64,000 nucleotides of DNA, from contig NZ_CP035501.1 in assembly GCF_004135585.1 (NCBI RefSeq), forward strand, positions 4,845,501-4,909,500, written 5' to 3'. Below the pieces are notes generated by a model. That model was not told the DNA's origin. It saw only the letters and a list, made by a program, of their open reading frames with translations, and ran no database searches. Made by a program: the position numbers and the translations under genes. How positions within the stretch are numbered: the stretch's first letter is position 1; every line of letters starts with the position of its first letter. Of the stretch, positions 13,703-59,909 are shown one piece after another. The stretch comes from Sphingosinicella sp. BN140058. Its GTDB lineage: Bacteria > Pseudomonadota > Alphaproteobacteria > Sphingomonadales > Sphingomonadaceae.

Positions 13703-13786
13703 GTCGGCCTTCCGCGTAAGCCGACGTTCGCCGCAGTGACCGCGGACCCGGGCCGGAACAGCTGAATCGGGTGGATTCCAGACCTT
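13703..13786 (+). repeat. Array repeat 1, 3' half only
   Basis: Contains GTAAGCCGACGTTCGCC and the 3' module CCGGAACAGCTGAATCGGGT. The 5' GGGTCG part is missing. It is the leftmost member of the directional repeat family. Confidence 0.7.
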
Positions 13787-13840
13787 CGCATCGGAGCGAT
13801 GCTCACGCCAAGAGCTGCGTCGCGCCGAACCGAGAGTCGT

Positions 13841-13980
13841 TTAGATGAGGACGCTGACGTTCGAACCAGGTTCTGAGGTGCCGCTCTCGACCCCTTTCGT
13901 TGCGCGCTTAATGGCCTCCTCGATCTCTCGCAGGATGCCGGCCTTCTTCTCCGCAGGCAACGAGTCGAACTGCGCCTGAG
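13841..13980 (-). pseudogene. C-terminal remnant of a gene cut by an IS3 element
   Basis: The frame reads LTQAQFDSLPAEKKAGILRE then ATKGVESGTSEPGSNVSVLI and a stop. The composition is typical of a real protein end. Its upstream part would lie where the IS3 copy now begins at 13981. The protein is not identified, and the other side of the IS does not continue it. Confidence 0.55.
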
Positions 13981-14015
13981 TGAGCTGCTGCCGGTCTGAT
14001 GGACACTGAGTTAGG

Positions 14016-14876
14016 CTACGCTACCTCAGACAGCTTCTCGAAGTCGATGGGGCTGAGGTACCCCAAGGTCGAGTGTCGGCGCCTCGGATTGTAGAAGCGC
14101 TCGATATAGTCGAACACGTCGGCCTTGGCCTGGTCGCGGGTTCGATAGACCTTCCTGGCGATGCGCTCGGTCTTGAGCGAAGAGAAGAAGCTCTCCATTG
14201 CTGCGTTATCCCAGACGTTGCCTGAGCGGCTCATCGAGCATGATACGCCATTGTCGGCCATCAGCCGCTGGAACTGCTCGCTCGTATATTGGCTGCCTTG
14301 GTCCGAATGGTGGAGCAGGGCGTGCGGCTTTCCGCGACGCCAGATCGCCATAATCAGCGCATCGGTGACGAGCTGCGCGGTCATCGTCTCGCGCATCGAC
14401 CAGCCAACCACCCGCCGCGAGAACAGGTCAATCACGGCAGCGACGTAGAGCCAGCCTTGCGCGGTCCAGATGTAGGTAAAGTCGGCCACCCATTTCTGGT
14501 TCGGCCGGTCGGCGGAGAACTGCCGGTCGAGCACGTTGTCGGCGATGAGCGAACGGGTGCCGTCGTCCTTGGGCAGGCTGCGCCGCCGCGGCCTCGCACG
14601 AAGGCCCTCGAGACGCATCAGCCGTTCGACCCGGTGAAGGCCGCATGAAAGGCCTTCGGCCAGGAGATCGTGCCACACGCGGCGCGAACCGTAGGTGCGG
14701 TCGCTTGCAACGAAGCTGGCACGTACCTTGGCGCCAAGCTTCTCGTCACTCTTCGATCGTGCACTCGGCGCGCGCGTAAGCCAGGCATGAAAGCCACTGC
14801 GCGAGACCCCGAGCGCCTCGCAGATCCACGATACCGGCCAGGTCCCCCGGTGCTTCGCAACGAAGGCGAACCTCAT
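14016..14876 (-). CDS. IS3-group transposase OrfB (DDE integrase)
   Basis: 286 residues from MRFAFVAKHRGTWPVSWICE. It has an HTH_21 region (YGSRRVWHDLLAEG) and an rve core with WVADFTYIWTAQGWLYVA, LLHHSDQGSQYTSEQ and SGNVWDNAAMESFFSSLKTE, ending YNPRRRHSTLGYLSP. The catalytic Asp, Asp and Glu are all present. Normally made as an OrfAB fusion by frameshifting. Confidence 0.93.
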   Translation of the reverse strand: MRFAFVAKHRGTWPVSWICEALGVSRSGFHAWLTRAPSARSKSDEKLGAKVRASFVASDRTYGSRRVWHDLLAEGLSCGLHRVERLMRLEGLRARPRRRSLPKDDGTRSLIADNVLDRQFSADRPNQKWVADFTYIWTAQGWLYVAAVIDLFSRRVVGWSMRETMTAQLVTDALIMAIWRRGKPHALLHHSDQGSQYTSEQFQRLMADNGVSCSMSRSGNVWDNAAMESFFSSLKTERIARKVYRTRDQAKADVFDYIERFYNPRRRHSTLGYLSPIDFEKLSEVA

Positions 14877-14896
14877 ATCGAGTCCTTCGCGAAGTA

Positions 14897-14940
14897 GGCC
14901 GCTGCTTCGGCGTGGAATGATCCCCCGGATCATTCCTGAT
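14897..14940 (-). other. Palindromic insert at the OrfA/OrfB frameshift region
   Basis: Contains the perfect inverted repeat GGAATGATCC-CCC-GGATCATTCC (14914-14936). It separates ...ERDILN-stop of OrfA from the codons for AAAYFAKDSI, which usually follow DIL directly in IS3-group OrfA. Confidence 0.6.
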
Positions 14941-14945
14941 CCGCC

Positions 14946-15203
14946 TCAGTTTAAGATATCGCGCTCCGCCTTCATCCTGGCGAGCTCGCGGCGAAGCCGC
15001 TCAATCTCCTGCTGCTCGGGCTTCAGATTGCCGTGGCCGGGAAACGCCGAGCCGGCATCCGTCTCGAACTCCCGAACCCATTTGCGCAACACGTTCACGT
15101 GCAGATCCAGATCACGCGCGGCCTGGGCCACCGACACCCCACGCTCGCGGACCAGCTTCACCGCCTCAAGCTTGAACTCGCGGCTGTGTCTTCGTCGTTC
15201 CAT
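14946..15203 (-). CDS. IS3-group transposase OrfA, shortened
   Basis: 85 residues from MERRRHSREFKLEAVKLVRE, with an HTH_Tnp_1 domain (ARDLDLHVNVLRKWVREFE) and a leucine-rich helix (IERLRRELARMKAERDIL). It stops at DILN because of a palindromic insert; relatives continue KKAAAYFAK. It binds the element ends. Confidence 0.88.
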   Translation of the reverse strand: MERRRHSREFKLEAVKLVRERGVSVAQAARDLDLHVNVLRKWVREFETDAGSAFPGHGNLKPEQQEIERLRRELARMKAERDILN

Positions 15204-15264
15204 CCATTCCCTCCGATTCCATAAACACCTTATCTCGGTGTCCACGAAACCGGCAGCAGCTCAC

Positions 15265-15389
15265 CGGTCGACCATCTCGATCGGCCGCGCGCCAGCGCCG
15301 AACGTCAGACTGCCGCGCGAAACCTGCCGTTCGCGGTAGCTGCCGGCGATCGACGCGGGAATGACAGGGGAGGGTGGCAACGGGACATC
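15265..15389 (+). repeat. Array repeat 2, 5' end removed by IS3
   Basis: Begins inside the element (CCGGTCGACCATC) directly next to the IS3 end and runs to CAACGGGACATCC. Carries the central GAACGTCAGACTGCCGCGCG word. The missing GGGTCGGAC tip is not on the far side of the IS. Confidence 0.75.
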
Positions 15390-24598: not shown

Positions 24599-24745
24599 AA
24601 TGTCGTGAATGGGTCGGACCCGGCTGTCGGCGGTGGCGCGACCCCGGCGATGCGCGATGGTCGGCCTATTGCGCGGAACCGGACGTTCGCCGCCGCGGTC
24701 CGCAATCGCGCCGGGAACAGCTGAATCGGGTGGAAAGGCGACATT
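24599..24745 (+). repeat. Array repeat 3, complete
   Basis: AATGTCGTGAATGGGTCGGA to GGGTGGAAAGGCGACATT. The tips pair as AATGTCG/CGACATT rather than the usual GTCCGC/GCGGAC. First copy after the efflux locus. Confidence 0.85.
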
Positions 24746-24843
24746 CGCGAGGCACTGACGTTTCCTGGGAACTCCCGCTACACGGGCTGAGCATTATGCG
24801 GAGCGCGAACGCGTCGGGACAGGAAGAGGCGTGCAGAGCGAGA

Positions 24844-25602
24844 CTAGTATCCCAAGATGCTAAGCGGCTGCCGCGCCTCGCAACGAGGTGCGAGCCATTC
24901 AGCTAGGCCATGGCACAACTCGGCCTTGGCCGCCGCTTCGATCTCCCTCAGCCGATCGCCTTCGAGTCTGAGAGCCTGAACCAGCGCTGCGCAAGCCCCA
25001 GCGCTCAACTCGTAAGGGCCATGGCGGTGCCACGGCGTCCATCCAGAACAGGTGGCGATTAGGAGCGGCTCGATCGTGTCGAACGCAATGTCGGTGACCG
25101 ATACGCCTTTTCCGATGCCGTCCCGCCATCGCCCTTCCGCGAACTGGATCGTCATTCCTGGATCGAAGCCAACAGTCTCGTTCAGCCGATAATCTGCCGC
25201 GCAGGTGACCCATTTCGACGGGTGCTTTTGAAAGGTGCTCCGGGCCACCTTCCACGGTTTCACATCGAACTTGGTCTCCGCGAAGTCGATGTCATAGGTC
25301 TCGGCGTCCCCCAATGCGTAACCTTCAATTACAGACAAGCGGCGCCCTTCGAAGAGGGCGATAAAACCCATGCCGTGTTCAAGCCCGTCCACCATTGCGT
25401 AGGCGTCGTCGAGGGGGGATCCGTCAGGGAGCGGCGGAGCGTCCCCGGTCACGTTGATTGAGGAAAAGAAGCCTGTTCCGGTGTTCTCGAACCTGGTCAC
25501 CCGAGCACTCGCAGATTGCAGCCGTAATGGCTCTGTCAGGCTGGAATGGGCACAACCCAAGGTATCAAGCACGGCACGTTCAATCTGCCAAAGAGGTCTC
25601 AT
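24844..25602 (-). CDS. Hypothetical soluble protein
   Basis: 252 residues from MRPLWQIERAVLDTLGCAHS. The first half (TGFFSSINVTGDAPPLPDGS, then VDGLEHGMGFIALFEGRRLS) resembles a recurrent sphingomonad family of unknown function. The second half is distinct (GGWRDGI-like core near 150-170, and SGWTPWHRHGPYELSAGACA near 200). No signal peptide. Starts just before repeat 4, with which it diverges. Confidence 0.65.
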   Translation of the reverse strand: MRPLWQIERAVLDTLGCAHSSLTEPLRLQSASARVTRFENTGTGFFSSINVTGDAPPLPDGSPLDDAYAMVDGLEHGMGFIALFEGRRLSVIEGYALGDAETYDIDFAETKFDVKPWKVARSTFQKHPSKWVTCAADYRLNETVGFDPGMTIQFAEGRWRDGIGKGVSVTDIAFDTIEPLLIATCSGWTPWHRHGPYELSAGACAALVQALRLEGDRLREIEAAAKAELCHGLAEWLAPRCEARQPLSILGY

Positions 25603-25630
25603 GCTCGCACCGTAGCTCGGCGCACCGAAG

Positions 25631-47928: not shown

Positions 47929-48054
47929 TTCCGAAACGTCCGCAAAAGATTCAGGACGGATTGCGACGGCTCATGCTCGGCCGCGGCTGCTGGCATGCGA
48001 GCAAACGAGGGGCCGAAAGCACGAGGGTCAACGGGCTATTTCAGCCGTTCGCCC

Positions 48055-48470: not shown

Positions 48471-48554
48471 CTCGCTGCAGCGCAAAAGCCGACGTTCGCC
48501 GGCTACGGCGTCGATCGTCGTCGGAACAGCTGAACCGGGTGGAAAGAAGACATA
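48466..48554 (+). repeat. Array repeat 35, right half only
   Basis: AAGCCGACGTTCGCCGG to GGGTGGAAAGAAGACAT. The left half was lost where it joins the remnant gene. Confidence 0.72.
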
Positions 48555-48615
48555 GTCCTTACAAGCTTGACTAGGCCTCTTGTGGGGAGTGCCCCCGAGA
48601 AGGCAGGAATGCGCC

Positions 48616-49041
48616 ATGATCCTCGCCGCCGCGCTCGCAATCGTCTTATTCGCTGCTGCTTTCCACGTCCATTGGGCACTGGGAGGGCATCTCGGGTACT
48701 CGGTGTCTCTGCCACAGCTGCCCGACGGCACACCTGTCATGGCTCATCGCCTGCCTTGGTGGCGCCCCGCCGCAGGCGGTGTCGCCCTATGCCTGGTCTG
48801 CTTTGCGTTGCTCCTACTCACGCGGGCCGGGCATCTGCACCTGCCGCTGCCGCAAGCTCTGGTTCGCTTCGTGTTGCTGTCGGTGGGCGCGGCGTTCGTG
48901 GCTAGAGCCGTGATACCCAATCGCTATGTCGGCCTCTTCAAGGGTCTGCGGACCACCCGGTGGGCAAAGTACGATACGCGGCTCTACAGCCCACTTTTTC
49001 TGGTGCTCGGGCTGCTGACAGTCTGGCAGGCAATGAATTAG
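48616..49041 (+). CDS. DUF3995 family membrane protein
   Basis: 141 residues from MILAAALAIVLFAAAFHVHW. Family marks: AAFHVHWALGGHLGYSVSLP, VARAVIPNRYVGLFKG, and YDTRLYSPLFLVLGLLTVWQ. Four transmembrane helices. Function of the family unknown. Probably translated with the next gene 41 bases downstream. Confidence 0.82.
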   Translation: MILAAALAIVLFAAAFHVHWALGGHLGYSVSLPQLPDGTPVMAHRLPWWRPAAGGVALCLVCFALLLLTRAGHLHLPLPQALVRFVLLSVGAAFVARAVIPNRYVGLFKGLRTTRWAKYDTRLYSPLFLVLGLLTVWQAMN

Positions 49042-49081
49042 CAAATGCCAAGATCGCACCGGGCTGGGAATTCACTTCACG

Positions 49082-49666
49082 ATGGGATCGTTGACCTATC
49101 TCTTTGGCTTCATGACCAACGCAGTCATCGCGACCATTCTCTCGGGAGTCATCGCTGCCGTGGCCGCTTGGCTGCCCATCAAAGCCCCAGAGGCCGGGCC
49201 CCAGGAAAGCGTTCCCAGAGCTGCGAGAGCGGCAAAGGTATTCGCGGTCAGCTGGCTGCTGATCATGCTTTACGGCTGTGTGCAGATGTTTGGAACGCAT
49301 CATGAGGAGTTGAGCAAGTTCGAGGGAGCTGGAGTAGTCCCCGGCCTAATCGAAACCGAAGCGCAGGTTCTGCATGCGGAGCACATTGCCCTTGGGGACA
49401 GCGCGCAAACGTACGTAGCCATTTCTACGACGTCGCAGGCGGTCGAGCGGATCATGGGCATGAAGGGGTTGAAGCCGTCCCAGTTTGATGGTCATACCGT
49501 GAAAGCGCGCGGATGGCCGGTGCCGGAATGGTGGCCTATGAGCGCGTGTGAGGGAGGAGCCACGTACGGCGGCGACCCTTTTGCGGACCCGCCTGTCTAC
49601 TCTGAGTACACGCTCAATTGGTGTCCGGTTGAGAAGAAGGCCTACGTGCAGCGGTTCGATCACTAG
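49082..49666 (+). CDS. Membrane-anchored hypothetical protein
   Basis: 194 residues. Two hydrophobic segments (FMTNAVIATILSGVIAAVAA and VFAVSWLLIMLYGCVQMFG) and an outside domain with Cys residues (WPMSACEGGATYGGDPFADP, YTLNWCPVEKKAYVQRFDH). Function unknown. Stop 21 bases before repeat 36. Confidence 0.66.
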   Translation: MGSLTYLFGFMTNAVIATILSGVIAAVAAWLPIKAPEAGPQESVPRAARAAKVFAVSWLLIMLYGCVQMFGTHHEELSKFEGAGVVPGLIETEAQVLHAEHIALGDSAQTYVAISTTSQAVERIMGMKGLKPSQFDGHTVKARGWPVPEWWPMSACEGGATYGGDPFADPPVYSEYTLNWCPVEKKAYVQRFDH

Positions 49667-49686
49667 GCCTCGTTCTCGATCCGCCT

Positions 49687-49832
49687 AATGTCCGCCTTGG
49701 GTCGGACCCGGTCCACCGTCCGGACGTGAGGCACCCCGGCGCGGAAGGTCAGGCTGCCTCGCGGAAGCGGACGTAGCCGTTACCGGCGCCGCTCCTGGGT
49801 GGAAACAGCAGACTCGGGTGGAAGGCGGACGT
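49687..49832 (+). repeat. Array repeat 36, complete
   Basis: AATGTCCGCCTTGGGTCGGA to GGGTGGAAGGCGGACGTT. The tips pair over nine bases (GTCCGCCTT/AAGGCGGAC), which differ from the common GCTTT/AAAGC pairing. Confidence 0.88.
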
Positions 49833-49884
49833 TCGTCGCTGCCCGCAGCAGGTCGCGACGCGGGACAGTCGGCGTTGAGTTTGC

Positions 49885-50535
49885 TTAGTCGACGATCGTG
49901 ACGGTGACGGTGGCGCGGCATCTGCCGGCCGCCCGATCCCCTTCCAGCGCGACAAACGCCTCCGAAAGACGTCGTTCGCTGCTCACCCAGTCCGGAACAG
50001 CCAACACCTGTCTCGCGCCCACGGCACCGTCTGCTTCCACTACGATGACCTGGGCATCGGTCTCTCCGAAGAGAGATGGGATCTGCGCAGTGCCCGTGTC
50101 GATCTCGATCCCGGGTTGTCCTATACGTGCAGAGCCGGCCAGCGGAGCATCCCTCTTTATGACCGTGTGGGTCGCACGTGAAATCTGCTTGGTCCACACG
50201 ATGGTGCCGCCGAAGCGGATTGTTGCGGTTACGGGAAACCGCACATTGCGCGGCAACGCTATCGAGCCAATTTCCAGGGCTGCCATGGGCTGGTCAGATC
50301 GGAACTGTTCTTCTGAGTAGACCCAGCTGGCGCGATATTGATCGCCAAGTAACGTTATTGATCGGCGCACCGGGCGGTGCAACTTATCCACTTCCAACGC
50401 TGCCAGGAACCAAGCTCCGTTTGGCCGCTCCCGCACCTCTTGACGGCAGAACAGTGTTTCCGAGGTATGCTCGATCTGCTGACCAGTCCCGGCAGATGCA
50501 ACGGCCGCGACGGAAGAGAGGATGAAATCGATCAT
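49885..50535 (-). CDS. Exported hypothetical protein
   Basis: 216 residues. Signal sequence MIDFILSSVAAVASAGTGQQ. Beta-rich mature part (FLAALEVDKLHRPVRRSITL, FPVTATIRFGGTIVWTKQIS) ending RCRATVTVTIVD. Family unknown. Confidence 0.66.
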   Translation of the reverse strand: MIDFILSSVAAVASAGTGQQIEHTSETLFCRQEVRERPNGAWFLAALEVDKLHRPVRRSITLLGDQYRASWVYSEEQFRSDQPMAALEIGSIALPRNVRFPVTATIRFGGTIVWTKQISRATHTVIKRDAPLAGSARIGQPGIEIDTGTAQIPSLFGETDAQVIVVEADGAVGARQVLAVPDWVSSERRLSEAFVALEGDRAAGRCRATVTVTIVD

Positions 50536-50581
50536 AGCGGCAGCCTAGGAGCGTGGAGTAGACCTCGTCTAGCCTCCCCAC

Positions 50582-50727
50582 GTGTCCACTGAGGGTTGCA
50601 GCCGGTCGACAAGCCCGAGGTGGCGCACGACGCCGCGAGAAGTAAGGCTGCCGCGCGTAAGCGGACGTAGGCCTCACCTGCGCCCACTCCCGACCGGAAC
50701 AGCCGGAGAGGGTGGAAACGCGACATT
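50582..50727 (+). repeat. Array repeat 37
   Basis: GTGTCCACTGAGGGTTGCAG to GGGTGGAAACGCGACATT. 50728-50882 holds nothing recognised. Confidence 0.78.
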
Positions 50728-50882
50728 GCGCTCAACCCGGCATTATCGCAGAAGCGGACATGCAGCTGCGAATCCTAGCCGGCAACTCAGCGCGAAAGCC
50801 GGTTGATCGAGGGCAGCGAGCTTCTCAAGAGAGGACGCTCGCGATTAGGTTTCGGATCGATGGCATGCGATCCCGTTGCTTT

Positions 50883-51164
50883 TCAGTTGAACTCAACTCG
50901 GTAAGCGATCCCGTACCCGTTTTTCACTCCCCATTCTTGTAGGCAGCGCCACGACTCAGGCCGGCTTTCAGCGTCTGGCGCGTGAACAACCATCGTGGGT
51001 CGGTGTTCGGATTCGATCGAACCTATAGCGACCGCGTCCTTATAAAAGCCGCAGACCCGCGCCGCTTCACGTGTCTTTTCGTTCCTCAGCAGTCGGGGAG
51101 CAGCTGGTTCGGAGCAAGCGGCCGTCGAAAGTAGCAATACAGCAAATGTAGACCGCATCTTCAT
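50883..51164 (-). CDS. Small lipoprotein
   Basis: 93 residues from MKMRSTFAVLLLSTAACSEP, with lipobox TAAC. The mature part has AARVCGFYKDAVAIGSIESE and ESWRCLQEWGVKNGYGIAYR. Likely follows the small gene at 51175 in one transcript. Function unknown. Confidence 0.66.
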   Translation of the reverse strand: MKMRSTFAVLLLSTAACSEPAAPRLLRNEKTREAARVCGFYKDAVAIGSIESEHRPTMVVHAPDAESRPESWRCLQEWGVKNGYGIAYRVEFN

Positions 51165-51174
51165 TGCTTCCTTC

Positions 51175-51381
51175 TCACATTGTGGTTCCTTTGTGTCGAG
51201 ATTCCAACACGTGCGCCGGGTCAACGGCGATCGGCAGTCCACCCGCCGGAACGAGGATCAGCCGAGCCTGATCGAAATTCAGGGCGGGTTGCGCAGCTTG
51301 TAGCCTTTTGAAGGGTGTCCAAGCGCGGTGAAGGGTGAAGATTAGCTCGCAGAATGGCACATCGATGATTGGCTGAGTCAA
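51175..51381 (-). CDS. Short hypothetical protein
   Basis: 68 residues from MTQPIIDVPFCELIFTLHRA. Ten bases separate its stop from the next gene. No family recognised; coding status uncertain. Confidence 0.35.
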   Translation of the reverse strand: MTQPIIDVPFCELIFTLHRAWTPFKRLQAAQPALNFDQARLILVPAGGLPIAVDPAHVLESRHKGTTM

Positions 51382-51603
51382 TCACTGCAATGGGTCGCAG
51401 GCGGATGTAGCAGTCTGATCCATCGGGATGGAACACGACCGTCGGCCTACGGCGCGAAATCGGACGTTCGCCGCCGCGGCCTCCTGCGCCGGCTCGGGCA
51501 GCCGGCTCGGGTAGGATTGAGACGCTATCTCGCTGGTAGAAACTTGGCGACCGCCTCGTTCTTCGCCAGCGGTGACAGCCTAATCGGGTGGCGAGCGGAC
51601 CTT
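51380..51603 (+). repeat. Array repeat 38, with a second right end
   Basis: TCACTGCAATGGGTCGCAGG through a first right module (GGGCAGCCGGCTCGGGTAGG near 51510), then a second one: GTTCTTCGCCAGC to AATCGGGTGGCGAGCGGACC. A composite of two copies. Confidence 0.7.
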
Positions 51604-51611
51604 GTTTGAGC

Positions 51612-51917
51612 TCAGAGGCGGGTGAAGAGAGCGGCGCCGCTCGCCACATCTTCAATCCGGATGATCTCAGTCGAGTAGAAGTGATAACGGTCGTCCGCTG
51701 AGATCGGAATTCCGCCCATCTCCGCGAAATGCGCCCACTCGGCTAACGCAGGATCCAGCCACGGCGCCTCTTCTATCTCGTGGATCCGCATCCGTTCACC
51801 GTTCCATGTCGTCAGGAGTGTCGGGTTTCCGTTCCGGGATCGCAGAAGCTGGACGAGTTCATGCTCGGTCAGAAGCGTCTCAGCATCCTGGTTCACTCGT
51901 TCGATGTTGTCGCTCAT
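51612..51917 (-). CDS. Hypothetical soluble protein
   Basis: 101 residues from MSDNIERVNQDAETLLTEHE. It resembles small acidic domains (LLTTWNGERMRIHEIEEAPW, WAHFAEMGGIPISADDRYHF) that end IEDVASGAALFTRL. Family not named. Stop 9 bases from repeat 38. Confidence 0.62.
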   Translation of the reverse strand: MSDNIERVNQDAETLLTEHELVQLLRSRNGNPTLLTTWNGERMRIHEIEEAPWLDPALAEWAHFAEMGGIPISADDRYHFYSTEIIRIEDVASGAALFTRL

Positions 51918-51941
51918 AGCTTGGGTGTGCCGCCTCACATG

Positions 51942-52024
51942 AATGTCGTCTATGGGTCGGACCCGGTCCACCGTGTCATCTGGCGCATGGCTGCGACGAA
52001 CGTCGGGGTGCCGCGCGGAAGCAG
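51942..52024 (+). repeat. Array repeat 39, left part
   Basis: AATGTCGTCTATGGGTCGGA to CCGCGCGGAAGCAG, where the IS110-family element begins. The right part resumes at 53399. Confidence 0.85.
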
Positions 52025-52111
52025 ATGGGGTGGATGGCTCCCGCTCCCGGCATCTGAGTGCCAAATTGTGGTTGCTGTCGAAGCGTCCACTCACGAGAGG
52101 AGCCATCCGCG

Positions 52112-53140
52112 ATGGAGATTAGCACGATCGGCCTCGATCTGGCCAAGAGCATCTTTCAGGTTCACGCGATCAGCACCGCTGGCGAGACGGTCGTCCGGAA
52201 AGCGCTCCGGCGGTCGCAAGTGCTGCCGTTCTTCACAAAGCTGCCGCCGTGCCGGGTCGGGATCGAGGCATGCGGCACATCGCATCACTGGGCGCGAGAA
52301 CTGACCAGGCTCGGCCACGACGTGCGACTGATGCCGCCGGCTTACGTGAAGCCGTATGTGAAGCGCGGCAAGACCGACGCCAATGATGCGGAGGCGATCT
52401 GCGAGGCGGTGACGCGGCCGACGATGCGGTTTGTGCCAGTGAAGTCGCCTGAGCAGCAGGCGGCGCTGGCGCTGCACCGAACTCGCGATCTGCTGGTCAA
52501 GCAGCGCACGCAGCTCGTCAATATGATCCGTGGTTTGCTCGCGGAGTTCGGGATCGAGATGGCGCGAGGGCTGCACCATGCGCTCGAGCTCGCGAAGCGG
52601 CTGGTCGACGGCCGCGCACCCGACGTGCCGGAGCTGGCCCAGCGGGTGGTCACCGGCTTGGCGCAGCAGATCGGCAATCTGCAGGTGCAACTGGCGGCAC
52701 TCGAGAAGGAACTGCTCGCGTGGCATCGGTCCAACGAGCTGTCGCAGCGGCTTGCGACGATCCCTGGCGTCGGGATCATCTCGGCGACCGCGCTCGCCGC
52801 TTCGGTCACGGAGCCCGAGCGCTTCCGATCGGGTCGTCAGTTTGCTGCATCTCTGGGGCTGACGCCGCTGCAAAACTCCAGCGGTGGAAAGCAGCGAATG
52901 GGCCGGATCTCGCGCATGGGAGATCGCTACCTGCGCCGGCTGCTCGTCGTTGGCATGACATCGCTGATCAGGCGCGCCAGGACGGCGCCTGCATCAGTGG
53001 ATCCGCGCATCCCTGCCATGCTGCAGCGTCGACCGGCGCGCGTCGTCACAGTCGCCGCCGCCAACCGGACCGCGCGCGTCGCGTGGGCGATCATGACCCG
53101 CGGAGGCACGTATCGGCGGCCGACTTTGGCTGCGGCATGA
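52112..53140 (+). CDS. IS110-family transposase (DEDD recombinase)
   Basis: 342 residues from MEISTIGLDLAKSIFQVHAI. DEDD_Tnp_IS110 domain with GLDLAK, GIEACGTSHHW and GKTDANDAEAICEAVTRPTM, then a transposase_20 domain: LATIPGVGIISATALAASVT, FAASLGLTPLQNSSGGKQRM and GDRYLRRLLVVG. Such enzymes are guided by a bridge RNA from the element. Looks intact. Confidence 0.94.
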   Translation: MEISTIGLDLAKSIFQVHAISTAGETVVRKALRRSQVLPFFTKLPPCRVGIEACGTSHHWARELTRLGHDVRLMPPAYVKPYVKRGKTDANDAEAICEAVTRPTMRFVPVKSPEQQAALALHRTRDLLVKQRTQLVNMIRGLLAEFGIEMARGLHHALELAKRLVDGRAPDVPELAQRVVTGLAQQIGNLQVQLAALEKELLAWHRSNELSQRLATIPGVGIISATALAASVTEPERFRSGRQFAASLGLTPLQNSSGGKQRMGRISRMGDRYLRRLLVVGMTSLIRRARTAPASVDPRIPAMLQRRPARVVTVAAANRTARVAWAIMTRGGTYRRPTLAAA

Positions 53141-53398
53141 GACGCTAACCAGGAGACCAGCTCAACGAGGTTGCGAGGACGAAGAGATGTGATGGCGCAC
53201 CGGTCAGACCGGGAGCAGGGGCACGCCGCCGAAAGTCCGAGGCATCATAGCCTGCGAAGCAGAGTGGCACCCAGCTCGCGGATACCATCAGGGCCAGCGG
53301 TCAGGAAAACGGCCGCACCAACAGGCCGGACACAAGACTGCACCCGACCAGCCGCCAAACTTCAAATCGCCACTTGCAACGCGGGAGCCATCCACACA
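53141..53398 (+). ncRNA. Candidate bridge RNA region of the IS1111-group element
   Basis: 258 noncoding bases follow the transposase gene, while only about 87 precede it. In IS1111-group elements the bridge RNA lies in this right-hand end. The segment at 53251-53263 contains CCTGCGAAG, complementary to CTTCGCAGG on the right side of the target, and GAAGCAGA, identical to the left target plus core. These two words overlap, so only one may be a real guide. Proposed from position and base matches only. Confidence 0.4.
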
Positions 53399-53464
53399 AG
53401 ACCTTCGCAGGGGCGCCTGGGGATCACGCCGGGAATAGCCGGGGTGGGGTGGATTCGAGACATT
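53399..53464 (+). repeat. Array repeat 39, right part
   Basis: AGACCTTCGCAGGGGCGCCT to GGGTGGATTCGAGACATT. Continues the copy split by the IS110-family element. Confidence 0.85.
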
Positions 53465-53842
53465 CCACGCGTCGCCCCATCGCCGCAGAACCGGACATTG
53501 AACCGGGGAGGCACGCCGGCAGCTCAGCGCCAAAAACCGGTCGTACATACTGGGTAAGTCAGTTCCTAGAAGCGGCCGTTGGCTCCCTGCGCGTGTAAAC
53601 CATCGGATTTCCGGCCCCCGCCAGACCCGCCGCGGACGCGTGCCGCCGGGACCGATATCCTGTCTTCACCTGTCTGGGAGCCTGACGCGCACCAAAGTTG
53701 CCCGGCTTCGAGCATATTATGAACATCCTTCAAGGACGATGCCGGCGCGCCGCGCAACCCGGCGCCCCGACAGCGTCGGGACGTCGCGGTTCGGACGGCT
53801 GCATGGCTGGCGCCCGGACCGTTCGGCCTTTAGCGTAGTCCG
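53465..53842. other. Intergenic stretch, nothing recognised
   Basis: 378 bases before the DUF1963 gene. No convincing gene, repeat copy or RNA. Confidence 0.4.
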
Positions 53843-55576
53843 ATGCGTACCCTGCTCCTCCTGCTTCTGCTCCAGCTGCCGTTTTTGCTTTTCATGTGGC
53901 TGGTTCCACCCGAGCGTCGCACGCCCTCGCGCAAGGTGAGTGCGTGGCTGCTGGCAGGGCTGTCGCTGCTCGCCGCCGGGTCCGGCATCCTTCACCTCTA
54001 TTGGGAGGACGGGAATTTCGCGCGGTTCAGCTTCGTATTCGCCGTCTGTGCGGCGCTCGGGGCAGTGGCGCGCGCGAAGGGCTGGATCGGGCCCGACGAT
54101 CCCGACCCGCTGCTTGACGCTGGCGGGCTGGCCGAACCGCGGGCGACCGGAGGCGACGCGCAATCCGCCGCTGATCCGGCCGTCGACGCCGGCGCAGCCG
54201 CGCTGCTCGAGCGCTATCGTCGTCCCGCGGTGCTCCTGCACCGCCCCTATCCGCCGCACGCAGGGCCACCGGGCAACAGCCATTTCGGCGGGCTCCCTGC
54301 GTTCGCCGTGGGCATGGAGTGGCCGCGGACCTCGGCCGGTGTGCCGCTCCACTTTCTCTGCCAGGTCGATTTTGCCGACATGCACTGGACGACGCCGCTT
54401 CCCGACCACGGGGTTCTGCTTGTGTTCGTCCGCGACGACGACGCGCAGCAAAGGAGCAGCGGACGAGCGGGCGACGATTTTCGAATCCTCTATGCGCCCG
54501 AGGCCGCCGCCGGTCCGACCGAGGCTCCGGCCGATCTGCCGCCGATCGGCTGGGATTTCCCTCGAGGTCCCTACCGGGAGGTCCAGCTCGATGGCGAGCC
54601 CCACCAGCGGCTGCACGTCGCGTGGCCCATCCAGCCGCTGGAGATGGACAGCTTTCCCGACCAGAGCGGGTTGCCCGAGCTGATCGCTCATTCGGAGCGG
54701 GCGTGGCAGCAGTGGAGCCACGAATACCAGGTACGGAAGTCGCTCCACGAGAGGGATCCGAGCGTCCGGCGTTTCCCGACCGCGCCCGACGACCCCGAAG
54801 AGGCGGCGGTATGGGATCGCTATGGGGAATTGCTGCCGGCAGCCCGGGCGGCCGCGCTGGAGGCAGCGACCGGCACGCCGATCTACGAGGAGCCGGGTTA
54901 TGCCGCTGAAGCGCAGGCGAACCGGCGCGTGTTCGAAGACGGGTCGTTCCCGTCACACTGGATCTTCATCCACTATTTCGCCCGGATCGCCCTGCGGCGC
55001 TCTCGCCGGGATCCCCCATCAGACGCTGACACGGCCGCCGCCGCGATCGCAGACGCCGAGGCGCGCCTCGATCGGGCGGCGCGGGCGTGGTTCGATCGAT
55101 CCTGCGCACTGCCGCTCGAATCGCCGGTCGATGAGACCGATCGCGCTGCCTTTCGCGCGTGGGCAGCGAACATCCGGAGGGATCCCCGCTCGCGGGCGGG
55201 CTCGGATGCGCCGGGCTGGGCTGCCGAGGCTGCTTTTTGGGTGATCAGGAGCTGGGCGGGCAATCGCCGGCTGGCCGGCACGATCCCGCCGTCCGCCTAC
55301 GAAGCGGTCGCTGGCCGCTTCCACGCCAGTCGCGTAAGCCGCGGTGGCGAGAAGGACTGGTACCATTTCCACTTCTGTCAAATGCTCGGCCACGCGACCT
55401 CGTCGCAGGAGGCTGCGCCTGCCGACGGGACCGAGGTCTGCCTGCTGAACCTCGCCAGCGATCGTGCGCTCGGCTGGTCGTTCTGGGACTGCGGGGAGAT
55501 CGGCTTCTGGATCGCGCCCGAGGACCTCGCCGCCCGGGACTTCTCCAGGGTTCGGATGAGCGTCAACGGGCACTGA
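53843..55576 (+). CDS. DUF1963 (YwqG-like) protein with N-terminal membrane helices
   Basis: 577 residues. Two hydrophobic segments at the start (MRTLLLLLLLQLPFLLFMWL and WLLAGLSLLAAGSGILHLYW). DUF1963 marks: NSHFGGLPAFAVGMEWPRTS, PLHFLCQVDFADMHWTTPLP, and later FHFCQMLGHATSSQEA, CLLNLASDRALGWSFWDCGE, IGFWIAPEDLAARDF. A large helical insert (about 300-500) separates the two halves. Function of the family is unknown; it often sits near toxin or stress loci. Confidence 0.86.
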   Translation: MRTLLLLLLLQLPFLLFMWLVPPERRTPSRKVSAWLLAGLSLLAAGSGILHLYWEDGNFARFSFVFAVCAALGAVARAKGWIGPDDPDPLLDAGGLAEPRATGGDAQSAADPAVDAGAAALLERYRRPAVLLHRPYPPHAGPPGNSHFGGLPAFAVGMEWPRTSAGVPLHFLCQVDFADMHWTTPLPDHGVLLVFVRDDDAQQRSSGRAGDDFRILYAPEAAAGPTEAPADLPPIGWDFPRGPYREVQLDGEPHQRLHVAWPIQPLEMDSFPDQSGLPELIAHSERAWQQWSHEYQVRKSLHERDPSVRRFPTAPDDPEEAAVWDRYGELLPAARAAALEAATGTPIYEEPGYAAEAQANRRVFEDGSFPSHWIFIHYFARIALRRSRRDPPSDADTAAAAIADAEARLDRAARAWFDRSCALPLESPVDETDRAAFRAWAANIRRDPRSRAGSDAPGWAAEAAFWVIRSWAGNRRLAGTIPPSAYEAVAGRFHASRVSRGGEKDWYHFHFCQMLGHATSSQEAAPADGTEVCLLNLASDRALGWSFWDCGEIGFWIAPEDLAARDFSRVRMSVNGH

Positions 55577-55891
55577 GCTGCAGCGACCAATCGGTGGCGC
55601 GCGAGGGCGCCTTGCAGGCCCGAGTCGCAGCCCAAGGAGCAGCGGCTTTTTGCAGCGGCCGAAAAGCGACGAAAGGCCGGGGGCGATCGGCCTTGCGGTA
55701 TCGCTCATCCTCGGGCGTGCGTCCTCGAAGCGAACGACCGTTCTCCGCGCCGGGCCGCTCCTTGAAAGAGCGGCCAGATGTCCGCTATCCTTCTTTGCTC
55801 CTCCGAGGCCGCCAGTCCGCTGTCGGCCGAACTACGCCGAGAAGTAGGACCGGAGGAATGTCCGGTATCAAGCTGCAGCCTGTCGCCGAGC
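55577..55891. other. Intergenic stretch with hairpins
   Basis: Perfect 8-bp hairpin GGCCGCTC-CTTGAAA-GAGCGGCC at 55753-55775, without a T tract, and a weaker one near 55668-55695. They could end transcription of the DUF1963 gene only if assisted. No gene recognised. Confidence 0.4.
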
Positions 55892-56035
55892 TATGACCGC
55901 TATGGGTCGCAGGCGGCTGTAGCGCTCTGATCCCGCTGGTGGCGGCGCCATGGTCGGCCTACCTCGCGGAAGCAGACATAGCCGTTGCCGGCGCGGCTGC
56001 TTCCGGCTGACAGCTGACTCGGGTGGGAACGGGTC
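55892..56035 (+). repeat. Array repeat 40
   Basis: ATGACCGCTATGGGTCGCAG to ACTCGGGTGGGAACGGGTC. 103 bases identical to repeat 23. Confidence 0.85.
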
Positions 56036-56117
56036 TATGACGATGTGGCGGAAACTGGTGGATTCGCAACAATCAGTTCCGTACTGTTCGAGGCTTCATG
56101 AACCTGAAGGGAGCAAG

Positions 56118-56348
56118 ATGCGGTACAAAATTGTTGCCGCCTTTTCTGCTTCGGTCGCACTGGCAGTGCTAATCTGGGTTGGCCTGATTCAGATGAAGCT
56201 GTGGCTCTTCAAGCACGCGGTGCTTGGCGGCGCTATCGAAGTCGCTCCGGAAGGCTACTGGCTCCTCGCAGCGCAGGGCGTCGTGATTGTCGCGTCCTGC
56301 TTTACGTGCGTCGTTGCCATACGTGCGATGCGAAAGGGATCTCGATAG
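56118..56348 (+). CDS. Small two-helix membrane protein
   Basis: 76 residues from ATG 56118, after GGGAG. Transmembrane helices FSASVALAVLIWVGLIQMKL and GYWLLAAQGVVIVASCFTCV, basic tail. Function unknown. Confidence 0.65.
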   Translation: MRYKIVAAFSASVALAVLIWVGLIQMKLWLFKHAVLGGAIEVAPEGYWLLAAQGVVIVASCFTCVVAIRAMRKGSR

Positions 56349-56436
56349 TCGGCAGGCATTTGCACCTCTGATTAGAGGCCAAGGCCGCCAATGCGCATGG
56401 CAGAAGCGATTTCTGCCGTCGCTGAGGCCCGCCTGC

Positions 56437-56583
56437 AACGTCCTGAATGGGTCGATCTGCGCTGTAGCGGGCGGAGCTTGGACGAAGCGGCGAGATCGTC
56501 AGCCTGCCTCGCGGAAGCGGACATAGCCCTCGCCGGCGCCGCTTCCCCTGGGGAACAGCTGGATCGGGTGGAAAGCTGTCATT
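56437..56583 (+). repeat. Array repeat 41, complete
   Basis: AACGTCCTGAATGGGTCGAT to GGGTGGAAAGCTGTCATT. Its end overlaps the stop codon of the next minus-strand gene. Confidence 0.85.
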
Positions 56584-57019
56584 GCGCGTCGGGGTGATAG
56601 GCATTTTTCTCGCCAGCCATTTTGGCGAACAAGGCCTCTTCATCGGCCGTGCTCAAAGGTTTAACAACCTTGATGCGCCGAACTTCCAGGATATCGAGCC
56701 AAGAACGATCGTCCGCGTCCCGGTAATAGATCCTTCCGGTCACTACGCCGAACGTATTGAACATGTCGGCATTCTCGAGAGCTTGCCTGACGGCAGCGGG
56801 AAGATTGGAGGTGGCGCCGGGGATTCCTCGCCAGCAGCGAGTATCCACGACCAAGGGCGGCGAATGCATGCTCCCTCCCGTGAACATCGCGACGAACTCG
56901 ACCTTTGTACCCTGCCATCCTTGGAAGCGATTGCCCATCTCGCAGATGGTTGGATGCGTGACATCGGCCTTGCAGGCAACCAAGAGTCCGACGAGTAGCA
57001 AGGAGCGGGTGACTCGCAT
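56579..57019 (-). CDS. Small lipoprotein
   Basis: 146 residues from MRVTRSLLLVGLLVACKADV, with lipobox LVAC. The mature part has HPTICEMGNRFQGWQGTKVE, PLVVDTRCWRGIPGATSNLP, and a beta-rich segment. The stop codon lies inside the terminal bases of repeat 41. Function unknown. Confidence 0.7.
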   Translation of the reverse strand: MRVTRSLLLVGLLVACKADVTHPTICEMGNRFQGWQGTKVEFVAMFTGGSMHSPPLVVDTRCWRGIPGATSNLPAAVRQALENADMFNTFGVVTGRIYYRDADDRSWLDILEVRRIKVVKPLSTADEEALFAKMAGEKNAYHPDAQ

Positions 57020-57108
57020 TTGGTGAGCGTAGCTAGGTATGCGCTCTCGGCAAGTGAGCAGACGTAGGCCCCTGCGAGAGCCTGCCACCCGCAATGGAGG
57101 TGCCGCTG

Positions 57109-57253
57109 ATGTCGGCTTTGGGTCGATCCGCGCTGTAGCGCCGTGATCCTGTCGGTGGCGGCGCGATCGTCAGCCCGCCTGGCGAAAGCGCACGTGGCCT
57201 TGGCCGGCGCCTGCTCCAGGCCGGAACAGCCGTATCGGGTGGAAACGCGACAT
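57109..57253 (+). repeat. Array repeat 42
   Basis: ATGTCGGCTTTGGGTCGATC to GGGTGGAAACGCGACAT. CGCGCTGTAGCGCCGTGATC type, close to repeats 7 and 18. Confidence 0.86.
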
Positions 57254-57266
57254 AGCCAAGGGTCCT

Positions 57267-57500
57267 TCACCCGAACTTCGCGGTAAACTCCTCTACCTCT
57301 TCGTCGGTCACGCGCCAGTCAGATCCGCGACACTCGGTGAGCGCGACCAATCCCAGCAGACGAAGTGGATCTTCCGCAACAAAGCGGTCGCTTCCACGCT
57401 CAGCGATCATGTATGGCCCGGAAGTGCGAATTGAGAAACCCTTCTGCACAAGCGCGGCGTAGGCAGGTGCGAGCACGTTTGCGGCTTCGGCTACGTACAT
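57267..57500 (-). CDS. Short soluble hypothetical protein
   Basis: 77 residues from MYVAEAANVLAPAYAALVQK; a start 19 codons upstream is possible. Pattern AERGSDRFVAEDPLRLLGLV, then ECRGSDWRVTDEEVEEF recurs in small sphingomonad proteins. Function unknown. Confidence 0.62.
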   Translation of the reverse strand: MYVAEAANVLAPAYAALVQKGFSIRTSGPYMIAERGSDRFVAEDPLRLLGLVALTECRGSDWRVTDEEVEEFTAKFG

Positions 57501-57564
57501 AGCTCCGGTTCCCAATATACCTGGCTCCAGGATAGGACGCACACGGAGCGTCGGCAACGTCCAA

Positions 57565-57747
57565 GCGGACGTTCATCGCCTAGGCCATCGATCGCGCCGC
57601 CAGCAGCCGGACAGGGTCGGTGCACGTCCTAGGTCCTCACGTGGTGCACGCTGGCGGCGAACGTCAGGCCGCCCCGCGAGAGCGGACCTTCGTGGGATCG
57701 CCTGGCGATCGCCGTCGGAGCGACGGGGCAGGGTGATTTGCGACATT
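57565..57747 (+). repeat. Array repeat 43, partial copy fused to a full copy
   Basis: The right half of one copy (GCGGACGTTCATCGCC to CAGCAGCCGGACAGGGTCG) joins, at the GGGTCG word, a full copy with GTGCACGTCCTAGGTCCTCA to AGGGTGATTTGCGACATT. Confidence 0.8.
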
Positions 57748-57828
57748 GCGCTTTTGACGTCAAAATTCGTGACCGCGCCTTTCCCGTAGGGCAGGGGCAT
57801 GGGTTGTATCGGGTGGGAGAACGAAGCG

Positions 57829-58353
57829 ATGGTCGGCATTTTCAAGAGGCTGTTTGGCAGAAAGAACGATGCAGCCGAACAAGTGTCGCCAGTGCGACGA
57901 TCCGAGAGGCTAGAAGCGGTACCGGACGGCATGCCGACGAGCATTGAGGAGGGAATGGAATGGCAGGCGGCAGATTTCGTGACGGCGTTTTCCTCCGCAG
58001 GCTCCCCAGTGGACGGAAGCAAGCTTGATTACAGCGAAGCATCCCTCGAACTCGTGGATCGGGTGCTGGATGACTTCTATCGCCTGGGAGCATCGCTTCC
58101 CGAAGATCTGCACTTTCTGACATCCGCCTACATCTTTGAAGTCGCGCGTCGGGCGTTCGGCGGGCGATATCTCCGTGGTGATAAGGAGAACCCCTTCGTG
58201 CTTGTTATCGGCGAGGGAACCGCTGAGGTCGGGGTCTGCGTGATGTCGAAGGTCCACGGACGTGCGGTGAACGGGCCTGAGGATAGCATCCCATTCTTCT
58301 ACGCTGGGATTGCTCCCCTTGTGTCTGCCGGGACTAGCGCGACGTTGATTTGA
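57829..58353 (+). CDS. Hypothetical soluble protein
   Basis: 174 residues from ATG 57829 (MVGIFKRLFGRKNDAAEQVS); an upstream ATG at 57799 is weaker. A basic start, then GSKLDYSEASLELVDRVLDD and FVLVIGEGTAEVGVCVMSKV. It resembles small immunity-like proteins. Family not named. Confidence 0.65.
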   Translation: MVGIFKRLFGRKNDAAEQVSPVRRSERLEAVPDGMPTSIEEGMEWQAADFVTAFSSAGSPVDGSKLDYSEASLELVDRVLDDFYRLGASLPEDLHFLTSAYIFEVARRAFGGRYLRGDKENPFVLVIGEGTAEVGVCVMSKVHGRAVNGPEDSIPFFYAGIAPLVSAGTSATLI

Positions 58354-58491
58354 GATCGCTGCCATCAAGCATGAGCGCTTTGCCGACTTGCGCGCGGTGG
58401 CCGTCGCTCACCGAGGGCAGCTTCGATGCTCATGGTTTATAACTTCCAATCACCGCTTGCGGGCGCTTGCCGCCGATCCCGATCCGCGCGA

Positions 58492-58632
58492 AACGTCCTT
58501 TTCGGGTCAAAGCCAAGGTCCCCACATGGCGCACGCCAGCGGCGAATGGCAGGGTGCCGCGCGGAAGCGGACCTTGGCCGAGTTGGCTGGCGATCGCGCC
58601 GGGAACAGCCGGGAGGGTGGAGATGCGTCATT
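58492..58632 (+). repeat. Array repeat 44
   Basis: AACGTCCTTTTCGGGTCAAA to GGGAGGGTGGAGATGCGTCATT. AGGTCCCCACATGGCGCA type. 58354-58491 holds nothing recognised. Confidence 0.82.
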
Positions 58633-58661
58633 TGTGGAAGCGTTTGGTGTAACACGACCAC

Positions 58662-58943
58662 GTGGCCAATCGCTTAGCCAGATACCATAAAGTTGCAGCG
58701 CTCGCCCTCGAGCCCACGCCGAGCCGTAGCTTGATTGCCGCCGGGGTGGCGGGCGCACTCGCCTTTGTCCTCACACAATTGCTGCTCGGCGTTTGGTGGG
58801 GCGCTGGTACGGCTGCTGTTACTTTTGCCTCCTTCGGAGCAGCGATAGCAGCAGCAGTGGCAGCCGTCACAATGAAGCCAGCGATGGCGGTAGTTTATGG
58901 GGTAATCGGAGCTATCTGGCTGCTGTTGGAGGCCTTGGTTTAG
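58662..58943 (+). CDS. Small integral membrane protein
   Basis: 93 residues from a GTG. Three transmembrane segments: [40 protein letters not shown] and [20 protein letters not shown]. Function unknown. Confidence 0.65.
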
Positions 58944-58974
58944 CGCTTGGGTGCATCGTGGCCGCACTGGGCTG

Positions 58975-59075
58975 AATGTCCGGAATGGGTCGCAGGCGGC
59001 TGTAGGAGCTCGGGCGCAGTCGGGCAGGCGAGAACGTCGGCCTGTCGCGCGCAATCGGACGTTCGCCGCCGCGGC
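58975..59075 (+). repeat. Array repeat 45, right half lost to an IS256 remnant
   Basis: AATGTCCGGAATGGGTCGCA to ACGTTCGCCGCCGCGG. The transposase remnant follows directly. It is the last copy in the window. Confidence 0.82.
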
Positions 59076-59909
59076 TTTCCTGGGCGAAGGCGGTGGCGAC
59101 GAAGGCGGAGACGACCCGGCGTCCGCTTTTGCCGGAATGGGCGAGCAGATTCCGCATGAAGTGGACGCGGCAGCGCTGCCAGGTGGCGCAGAACACCTTG
59201 GCGACGGCCGCCTTGATGCCTTCGTGCGAGTCGGAGATGACGAGTTTGAGACCGCGCAGGCCGCGGCGTGCGAGGCTGCGCAGGAACTCGGTCCAGAAGG
59301 TCTCGGCCTCGGACGGCCCCACCGCCATGCCGAGCACTTCGCGCCGACCGTCGCTGTTGGCCCCGACGGCGACGATCACCGCGACGGACACGATCCGGCA
59401 GGCTTGGCGCACCTTCACATAGGTGGCGTCGATCCAGAGGTACGGCCAATCGCCCTCGATCGGACGGGTGAGGAACGCATCAACGCGTTCATCGATCTCC
59501 TTGCAGAGCCGGCTCACCTGGCTCTTCGAGATGCCGCTCATGCCCATCGCCTTGACCAGATCGTCGACCGAGCGGGTCGATATGCCCTGGATATAGGCTT
59601 CCTGGATGACGGCGGTCAGCGCCTTCTCGGCAAGCCGGCGCGGTTCGAGAAAGCATGGAAAGTAGGAGCCGGTCCTCAGCCTGGGGATCTTGAGCTCGAC
59701 GGTGCTGGCGCGCGTCTCCCAGTCGCGATCGCGATAGCCGTTGCGCTGCGCCAGCCGATCGGCGCTCTTCTCGCCATAAGCGGCGCCGGTCATCGTCCCG
59801 ACCTCGATCTCCATCAGCCGCTCCGCGGCAAAGCCGATCATCTCGCGCAGGAAATCAGCATCCGGGCTCTTTGCAGCAACGCCTGCAGGTCCATCTTGTC
59901 CTCGGTCAT
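59076..59909 (-). pseudogene. IS256-family (mutator) transposase, frameshifted and 3'-truncated
   Basis: Start [13 protein letters not shown] at 59909; one missing base near 59870 then shifts the frame. The continuing frame reads [56 protein letters not shown] (first Asp), [20 protein letters not shown] and [12 protein letters not shown]. It breaks at VATAFAQE, where repeat 45 begins, so the last third with the catalytic Glu is missing. Confidence 0.88.

Follow-up and report, generated by a model that had tools for sequence, protein, structure and literature searches.

Directional repeats as the probable joints of mobile small-gene cassettes in Sphingosinicella

Introduction

Why should dozens of copies of a repeat all face the same way along a stretch of bacterial DNA whose genes lie on both strands? 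The question is raised by 64,000 nucleotides of the genome of Sphingosinicella sp. BN140058 (contig NZ_CP035501.1, positions 4,845,501 to 4,909,500; the whole of this stretch is called the window hereafter). An earlier note had described about 45 copies of a 146-bp hairpin-tipped repeat in a single orientation and suggested either site-specific insertion of cassettes or insertion tied to one replication strand. We favor, at a probability of about 0.65, the reading that the window is an array of mobile small-gene cassettes in which the repeats are the joints, and that the cassettes are moved by a small tyrosine recombinase.

The repeat and its copies

A profile hidden Markov model (HMM) made from the repeat copies was used on the window and on fetched genome stretches. 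It recovers 47 copies of a degenerate repeat of about 146 bp on the plus strand between positions 13677 and 59079 of the window, with E-values down to 2e-33, in agreement with the earlier count; three consensus patterns match the window 18, 5 and 10 times against maxima of 2, 0 and 1 in 100 shuffles. All 47 copies point the same way, as had been claimed: the single minus-strand match at E<1e-3 (genome positions 4883150-4883223) overlaps a plus-strand copy whose internal palindrome, in our reading, matches itself there. The copies are in part incomplete, a left core being recognizable in 38 of the 47 and a right core in 41.

A sequence model, with 150 of 12652 first-look candidates scored, listed 131 matches across the genome, and weak copies may be missed. 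Applied to the stretches around those matches, the profile gives 130 copies (60 on the plus and 70 on the minus strand) and the one self-match. By our own grouping they form nine clusters, each of one direction: A- (8 copies), B- (8), C- (16), D- (16), E+ (1), F+ (4), F- (22), G+ (3) and H+ (52), the last being the window array with five further copies 42-58 kb beyond the 47. The fixed orientation thus holds within each array and not genome-wide, and both directions are mixed in one relative, G020. The fetched stretches of Sphingomonas deserti contain 100 copies of the repeat, again with one direction per stretch.

The 146-bp repeat consists of two cassette tips and, between them, a body that measures about 110 bp and has an internal palindrome close to its middle. 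Counting copies in which at least five of the six core bases fit, in this genome and S. deserti together, the left core is exactly GGGTCG in 126 of 165 and the right core exactly GGGTGG in 130 of 190, and the core starts lie 116 or 117 bp apart in 119 of the 145 copies keeping both. Inverted arms flank the cores on the outside (ANGTCNGC and GCNGACNT), and a third inverted motif is seen in the consensus near the body midpoint (AACGTCAGC...GCGGACGTT). Each cassette begins with a core GGGTGG and the arm NNNGCNGACNT behind it, and closes with the arm ANGTCNGCNNN and a core GGGTCG. The bodies share an average identity of about 66%.

The description of the repeat as hairpin-tipped does not hold up: its ends are inverted, yet RNAalifold finds no consensus pair in 35 aligned copies, and left tips show no covariation with the right tips of the same, the previous or the next copy, with tips and body arms behaving as in shuffles. 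The two ends of one cassette likewise do not match each other individually in excess of shuffles. A hairpin or RNA element was rejected on the missing consensus fold and on Rfam, which at its gathering thresholds reports only an insertion-sequence (IS) pseudoknot at window position 8515. Since the arms covary neither within a copy nor across a cassette, their appearance is that of half-sites bound by a protein in double-stranded DNA. Breaks of truncated copies seemed to lie near the internal palindrome, and this candidate pattern was dropped as the profile ends are too fuzzy for such a claim.

Cassette contents

Measured from a right core to the next left core, the cassette units have a median length of 579 bp (n=140 with both cores, in this genome and S. 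deserti); the window holds 32 units with both cores. The best open reading frame (ORF) scores above 5 in 134 of the 140, and the best ORFs lie in both directions relative to the array (61 plus, 79 minus); these calls are approximate, a codon-based gene finder trained on mixed ORFs having done badly and been replaced. The spacing of the repeats is set by small units, mostly with a plausible ORF. A Pfam search with 131 cassette ORFs detected 63 families at an E-value of 0.001, including transposases, Imm11, GNAT, MarR, CRP and DUF1963, and among the 25 commonest families shown none occurs in more than four of the 131 proteins. PADLOC anti-phage profiles match none of the 131 at 1e-5.

Some individual units may be mentioned in passing. 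Immunity-like cassettes are represented by Imm11 in three of the 131 proteins and by the ORF at 43215-43478, which is barstar-like by eye. DDE transposase domains are present among the cassette ORFs. A near-identical stretch of about 1.56 kb lies within cassettes of arrays A-, D-, F- and Ri+ (L091).

Evidence for the movement of cassettes

An all-against-all comparison finds the same cassettes in different arrays and genomes, including S. deserti, beside different neighbors. In all seven near-full-length cassette pairs the similarity begins exactly at the right core of the upstream joint, and in three of the seven it reaches the left core exactly at the downstream end. Ten pairs were viewed as alignments: three clean ones (C/A, 100%; D/Rh, 94%; F/F, 98%) stop at the left core, past which the bodies differ, H/Rg and F/Ri continue through the body and stop near the next right core, and H/Ri, D/D and Re/Ri fade shortly before the left core. 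The upstream bodies, comparable in four of the seven pairs, score 0.65 to 0.78, which is chance-like against a random-pair 99th percentile of 0.86. Downstream, the bodies are alike in H/Rg (0.92) and D/F (0.95, homologous in the right part only) and unlike in D/D, F/F, H/Ri and Rg/Ri (0.60-0.67). In these alignments the right core is thus the regular edge of a cassette, as it is in integrons, with the left core as a further one.

Four clear junctions join one body directly to another through a single core and mark missing cassettes; a fifth one flagged by our script was left out, as the arm upstream of it scores as a cassette arm too. With whole cassettes recurring in unrelated contexts, edges lying at the cores and single-core junctions, cassette movement is well supported by comparison of the sequences, and of the two processes suggested in the earlier note it is site-specific cassette insertion that is borne out. 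Identical cassette copies argue for recent activity of the arrays.

Sites in related genomes

Excision of a cassette at the cores would bring its two ends together in a palindrome around GGGTSG. The predicted joint of two cassette tips, derived from the window as the exact 20-base pattern TGTCCGCNNNGGGTCGNNNGCGGACA, occurs in four of 26 genomes of the genus and in 11 of 397 genomes from eight of 96 genera of the family, and the backward pattern in none of either set. With two mismatches allowed in ten genomes, G020 has 62 matches and G002 has 30, again with none backward; the other eight give 5 to 23 matches with 1 to 4 backward, such weak counts being partly noise. The ten two-mismatch matches in this genome are partly the left joints of its own repeats.

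We scored 106 palindromic sites in 19 fetched clusters of relatives. Same-direction neighbors 150-2500 bp apart show GGGTGG followed by GGGTCG in 31 cases, the reverse in 4 and equal cores in 14, so that 31 of the 35 informative pairs keep the core order; the relatives carry the sites as palindromes. Overall, 49 of 63 neighboring pairs point in the same direction. The stems of the 106 sites show no covariation (7.94 matches against 8.05 in shuffles), as would be expected for a protein site in double-stranded DNA, and in several clusters the inner arms look conserved and the outer arms variable. Short spacers between sites recur at 35-37, 58-59, 81-83 and 131-140 bp, the 58-bp spacer being about half the core-to-core distance of the window repeat. 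Another member of the genus, G003, combines the tips and cores of the window repeat with a different body, partly in 500-bp tandem copies.

Three further observations concern these relatives. On contigs C4 and C101 of G003 (L095, L096) the same cassette and joint follow each other in exact 500-bp steps at the contig ends. G020 has variant cores such as TGGCGC and TGGCCG at 81-83 bp from GGGTCG sites (L236, L239, L240, L244), perhaps a second class of site. In G181 (L280) very similar lipoprotein-like ORFs (5113-5532 and 6699-7118) occupy two different units of a single array and probably arose by duplication of a cassette.

A candidate recombinase

Five proteins of this genome contain the PF00589 domain: two Xer-like recombinases, one phage-type protein, one protein without an NCBIfam match and one small recombinase of about 190 aa, which consists of the catalytic domain alone and aligns to residues 193-349 of XerH. 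Homologs of the small protein are found in 103 of 298 family genomes at 1e-30 and also on plasmids. We chose 20 stretches that had a divergent homolog, a weak match to the repeat or a site, and observed nine homologs in eight of them. In three of these, from three other genera (G235, G054, G181), a homolog of about 190 aa lies between two groups of sites which all point away from it, those on the left being minus and those on the right plus: 6/6, 11/11 and 9/9 sites, or 26/26, with distant sites counted (in G235 as far as 12 kb away, in G181 at 6-7 kb on the right side). The same rule is kept by 2/2 sites in G188, 3/3 in G278 and 2/3 in G184, and by 42 of 54 over eight loci when G002 and G020 are included. 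In G002 the four nearest sites obey it and the recombinase gene fills a 658-bp unit between two sites; in G003 the gene is interrupted by a stop, with weak matches to array-type joints in its neighborhood.

On the tree the enzymes of G002, G235 and G054 form a clade (97/82) next to G188, with those of G181, G020 and G003 elsewhere. The array-linked enzymes are clustered (4 changes, reached by 7 of 500 shuffles), and they need not share one origin. As controls, 103 kb around XerC/XerD and other recombinases contain no site, and 101 kb around 29 homologs of the family contain one; a further control scan gives eight half-sites in 197 kb. From this we infer that the enzyme of the cassette system is a catalytic-domain-only recombinase of about 190-210 aa. 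The copy in this genome was set aside as the array enzyme because it does not adjoin sites, and its family was kept as the candidate. Another candidate enzyme was dropped, an integrase of phage type that neighbors one of the S. deserti arrays (contig C15), with an interrupted frame and P4-type-like by eye. Palindromes near the 3' ends of homologs in other genera, considered as targets, rather resemble terminators. Partial matches to the small recombinase are scattered in the genus (G014, G006, G023, G004), suggesting its decay in several species.

Such a recombinase would bind the inverted arms of double-stranded DNA and exchange strands within the asymmetric 6-bp core, and exchange in an asymmetric core would let cassettes be excised and inserted in one direction only. 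In other genera the enzyme would sit between two divergent arrays; this genome has none beside an array, and its arrays would be served in trans or be orphans.

Several observations weigh against this explanation. No recombination event was observed, the evidence being sequence comparison. Four of the seven near-full-length pairs (D/D, H/Ri, Re/Ri, Rg/Ri; 82-88%) lose similarity 5-33 bp before the left core, two of the ten viewed pairs are unclear downstream (F/H is fuzzy at both ends and Ri/A has no second joint on one side), and it is three clean pairs that carry the case for exchange at the left core. Joints between two cassettes have no match in this genome with three mismatches allowed, and its arrays taken together with those of S. 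deserti offer a single weak case. Between arrays F+ and F- lies the small recombinase of this genome (3937564-3938133), with no site within 1.5 kb; it belongs to a plasmid-found clade and is 96% identical to plasmid copies. In the draft genome of S. deserti, which does carry arrays, the search for a homolog gave nothing beyond a weak XerC match. Of the 29 homologs from other genera, 28 are without such a site in their vicinity, and divergent homologs in G280 and G192 have no sites either. Finally, the pointing-away rule is kept by only 5 of 13 sites in G020 and 4 of 7 in G002, and a half-site scan adds sites that break it, two in G184 and one in G188.

Alternative explanations and known systems

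The alternative that fares best, though we consider it unlikely, is that the host XerC and XerD move the cassettes, as in the dif modules of Acinetobacter, with the small recombinase as mere cargo. Xer sites have arms of about 11-12 bp and a 6-bp core or spacer, the inverted-arm geometry of dif sites of about 28 bp, and the sites described here match it; moreover, G000 and S. deserti have Xer-like recombinases and no array-linked enzyme, and the small enzyme of G002 lies within a cassette-sized unit. The core described here is G+C-rich, however, and A+T-rich dif motifs, with one loose match in S. deserti, have none in the fetched stretches of this genome. In Acinetobacter, according to PMC13141974, genes are likewise bounded by such sites (pdif, used by XerCD). 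Unlike in those modules, where site orientation alternates, there is one direction per array here and mostly direct orientation of neighboring sites in relatives, as counted above, with two core types in a fixed order. The position of the small enzyme between divergent groups of sites in several genera, with three such enzymes forming a clade, also speaks against this alternative, and such a dedicated recombinase in several genomes is a further difference from dif modules.

Much less probable is that the window is the remnant of a true integron, i.e. a cluster of attC sites lacking integron-integrases (CALIN) whose repeats are diverged attC sites once served by the integrase IntI. The parallels are considerable: small cassettes in directional arrays, with genes in both directions, joints with two inverted-arm simple sites each, and several arrays per genome, some of them with no adjacent integrase. 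The attC site is marked by the boxes R'' (RYYYAAC) and R' (GTTRRRY), which occur in 0 and 3 of the 145 copies and never together (chance 0.6% and 1.2% per stretch). The signature of a folded strand is missing, there being neither a conserved fold nor covariation, none of the five PF00589 proteins reaches the integron-integrase cut-off, and a canonical integron was rejected on boxes, fold and IntI. Moreover, IntI is not known to cut at the position of the left core, where the three clean cassette pairs end, and the arrays of relatives run both ways from a different enzyme. In contrast to integrons, the cores GGGTCG and GGGTGG are conserved, and the probable enzyme, of about 190-210 aa, lacks the N-terminal core-binding domain and has arrays on both sides. 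Where integrons have an integrase gene at the start of the array, other genera show the different small enzyme amid groups of sites, and this genome has no enzyme beside its arrays.

We regard as equally improbable that the repeats are palindromes of the kind of repetitive extragenic palindromic (REP) sequences, bacterial interspersed mosaic elements (BIME) or miniature inverted-repeat transposable elements (MITE), spreading between genes without carrying any. Palindromic sites of 28-30 bp between genes, degenerate copies and mosaic-like recurrent spacings (58-59, 82 and 35-37 bp) are reminiscent of the GTAG and CGTC families of REP. Against this, whole gene-carrying units that start at cores recur in new contexts, the stems do not covary, and direction is uniform per array here, with a fixed order of the two core types in relatives. 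The inner bases of the 6-bp core are unpaired, unlike the 4-5-nt loops given for CGTC families in an excerpt of PMC3733652. That ordinary homologous recombination or duplication between the repeats built the arrays is the least credible alternative: bodies are about two-thirds identical and G003 has tandem 500-bp duplications, yet shared cassettes start on the 6-bp core despite differing bodies, and such a core is too short to make homologous recombination a likely cause.

The recombinase itself recalls FimB/FimE (PRK09870/PRK09871), likewise a catalytic domain alone of about 200 aa, which it matches weakly over most of its length; it falls far below the family cut-off, and those enzymes act on one invertible element as against arrays of many sites. 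The cassette system works like an integron without the defining features that we looked for, and would be of the gene-cassette kind, not an integron, possibly of separate origin. Whether the Sphingomonadaceae have a platform of their own, independent of integrons and dif modules, in which a catalytic-domain-only recombinase lies amid divergent arrays with double-stranded paired-core sites, and which includes orphan arrays, is in our estimate an even call. In that reading, the orphan arrays would hold a hundred or more joints in total in some genomes.

Array direction and replication

The fixed direction within an array can be attributed to the asymmetry of the 6-bp core. The other process proposed at the outset, a link to the replication strand, is only suggestive: the direction agrees with the sign of the GC skew of neighboring array-free stretches in eight of nine clusters (108 of 130 copies), and array F- (22 copies at genome 3952-3970 kb) is the one that departs from it. 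Within the array stretches the agreement is nine of nine, where the repeats may cause the skew. With nine clusters, an origin and terminus that the GC skew did not locate, and mixed directions in G020, the agreement does not go beyond a suggestion.

Features of the window

The two outlying copies, at 13.7 and 15.3 kb, are separated from the main array (24.6-59.1 kb) by a region (15492-24413) with a major facilitator superfamily (MFS) gene, resistance-nodulation-division (RND) efflux genes and a histidine kinase. The pseudoknot mentioned above is an ALIL element (RF01497, 8515-8631) at the start of a transposase gene (8557-9462; rve and HTH_21 domains). At the other end, a Mutator-type transposase ORF lies on the minus strand (58912-59841); its Pfam match and the last, truncated repeat copy both end at about 59077, which looks as though an IS had interrupted the array.

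Table 1. Repeat copies and selected cassettes, in positions of the window
Feature	Position	Strand	Basis or remark
Main cassette array, joints and cassettes	24600..59079	+	45 of 47 window copies
Repeat copy, left-truncated, outlying	13677..13784	+	profile HMM
Repeat copy, left part diverged, outlying	15265..15388	+	profile HMM
Repeat copy	24600..24744	+	profile HMM
Repeat copy	25631..25766	+	profile HMM
Repeat copy	26833..26970	+	profile HMM
Repeat copy	27712..27853	+	profile HMM
Repeat copy	28328..28471	+	profile HMM
Repeat copy	29601..29729	+	profile HMM
Repeat copy	30372..30513	+	profile HMM
Repeat copy	31013..31149	+	profile HMM
Repeat copy, best-scoring among genome matches listed	31905..32049	+	sequence model, profile HMM
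Repeat copy, left-truncated	32288..32408	+	profile HMM
Repeat copy	32648..32792	+	profile HMM
Repeat copy	34026..34170	+	profile HMM
Repeat copy	35588..35731	+	profile HMM
Repeat copy, body common (0.92) to S. deserti behind same cassette	36049..36186	+	profile HMM, alignment
Repeat copy	36990..37132	+	profile HMM
Repeat copy, left part diverged	37634..37744	+	profile HMM
Repeat copy	38135..38277	+	profile HMM
Repeat copy, diverged	39383..39506	+	profile HMM
Repeat copy	40555..40695	+	profile HMM
Repeat copy	41114..41258	+	profile HMM
Repeat copy	41660..41804	+	profile HMM
Repeat copy	42606..42750	+	profile HMM
Repeat copy	43070..43213	+	profile HMM
Repeat copy	43505..43648	+	profile HMM
Repeat copy	44224..44367	+	profile HMM
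Repeat copy	44814..44958	+	profile HMM
Repeat copy, right tip unmatched	45933..46062	+	profile HMM
Repeat copy, right core common to next copy	46630..46760	+	profile HMM, core analysis
Repeat copy, right-truncated	46753..46817	+	body-body junction, one core GGGTCG at ~46754, cassette missing
Repeat copy	46936..47082	+	profile HMM
Repeat copy	48056..48206	+	profile HMM
Repeat copy	48207..48340	+	profile HMM
Repeat copy, right half	48463..48553	+	profile HMM
Repeat copy	49688..49832	+	profile HMM
Repeat copy	50583..50726	+	profile HMM
Repeat copy	51385..51523	+	profile HMM
Repeat copy, left half	51943..52025	+	profile HMM
Repeat copy, right end only	53400..53463	+	profile HMM
Repeat copy	55893..56034	+	profile HMM
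Repeat copy	56438..56582	+	profile HMM
Repeat copy	57109..57253	+	profile HMM
Repeat copy, right part	57562..57617	+	single core GGGTCG shared with next body (body-body junction)
Repeat copy	57613..57746	+	profile HMM
Repeat copy	58493..58631	+	profile HMM
Last repeat copy, right-truncated	58976..59079	+	profile HMM
Cassette, 336 bp	35720..36056		counterparts in two S. deserti arrays (96% and 86% identity)
Cassette	44356..44824		83% identical relative in array F- of same genome, alignment ends fuzzy
Cassette	25755..26843		first 156 bp 88% identical to array C- cassette
Cassette	29730..30382		first ~210-220 bp 87-93% similar to stretches of G+, Re+, Rf+
Cassette	41247..41670		ORF 41301-41651 (+)
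Cassette	43202..43515		ORF 43215-43478 (-), barstar-like by eye only
Cassette	24733..25639		best ORF on - strand
Cassette	28460..29608		ORF 28669-29562 (+)
Cassette	32781..34036		ORF 32945-33952 (+)
Cassette	38267..39393		ORF 38363-39343 (+)
Longest window cassette	53452..55903		ORF 53843-55573 (+)

Significance

Our searches among open-licence papers returned no account of this cassette system. The arrays store small genes, and tools built on IntI and attC are not expected to see them. Integrons are extremely rare in Alphaproteobacteria, for reasons that are unclear, according to an excerpt of PMC9024848; if an independent cassette platform exists, it would fill the role of the integron in this class. 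It would also offer a simple double-strand alternative to the mechanism of the folded attC site, with a very small recombinase that is perhaps of use as a tool. If the system is indeed of separate origin, the capture of gene cassettes would have been invented more than once by bacteria.

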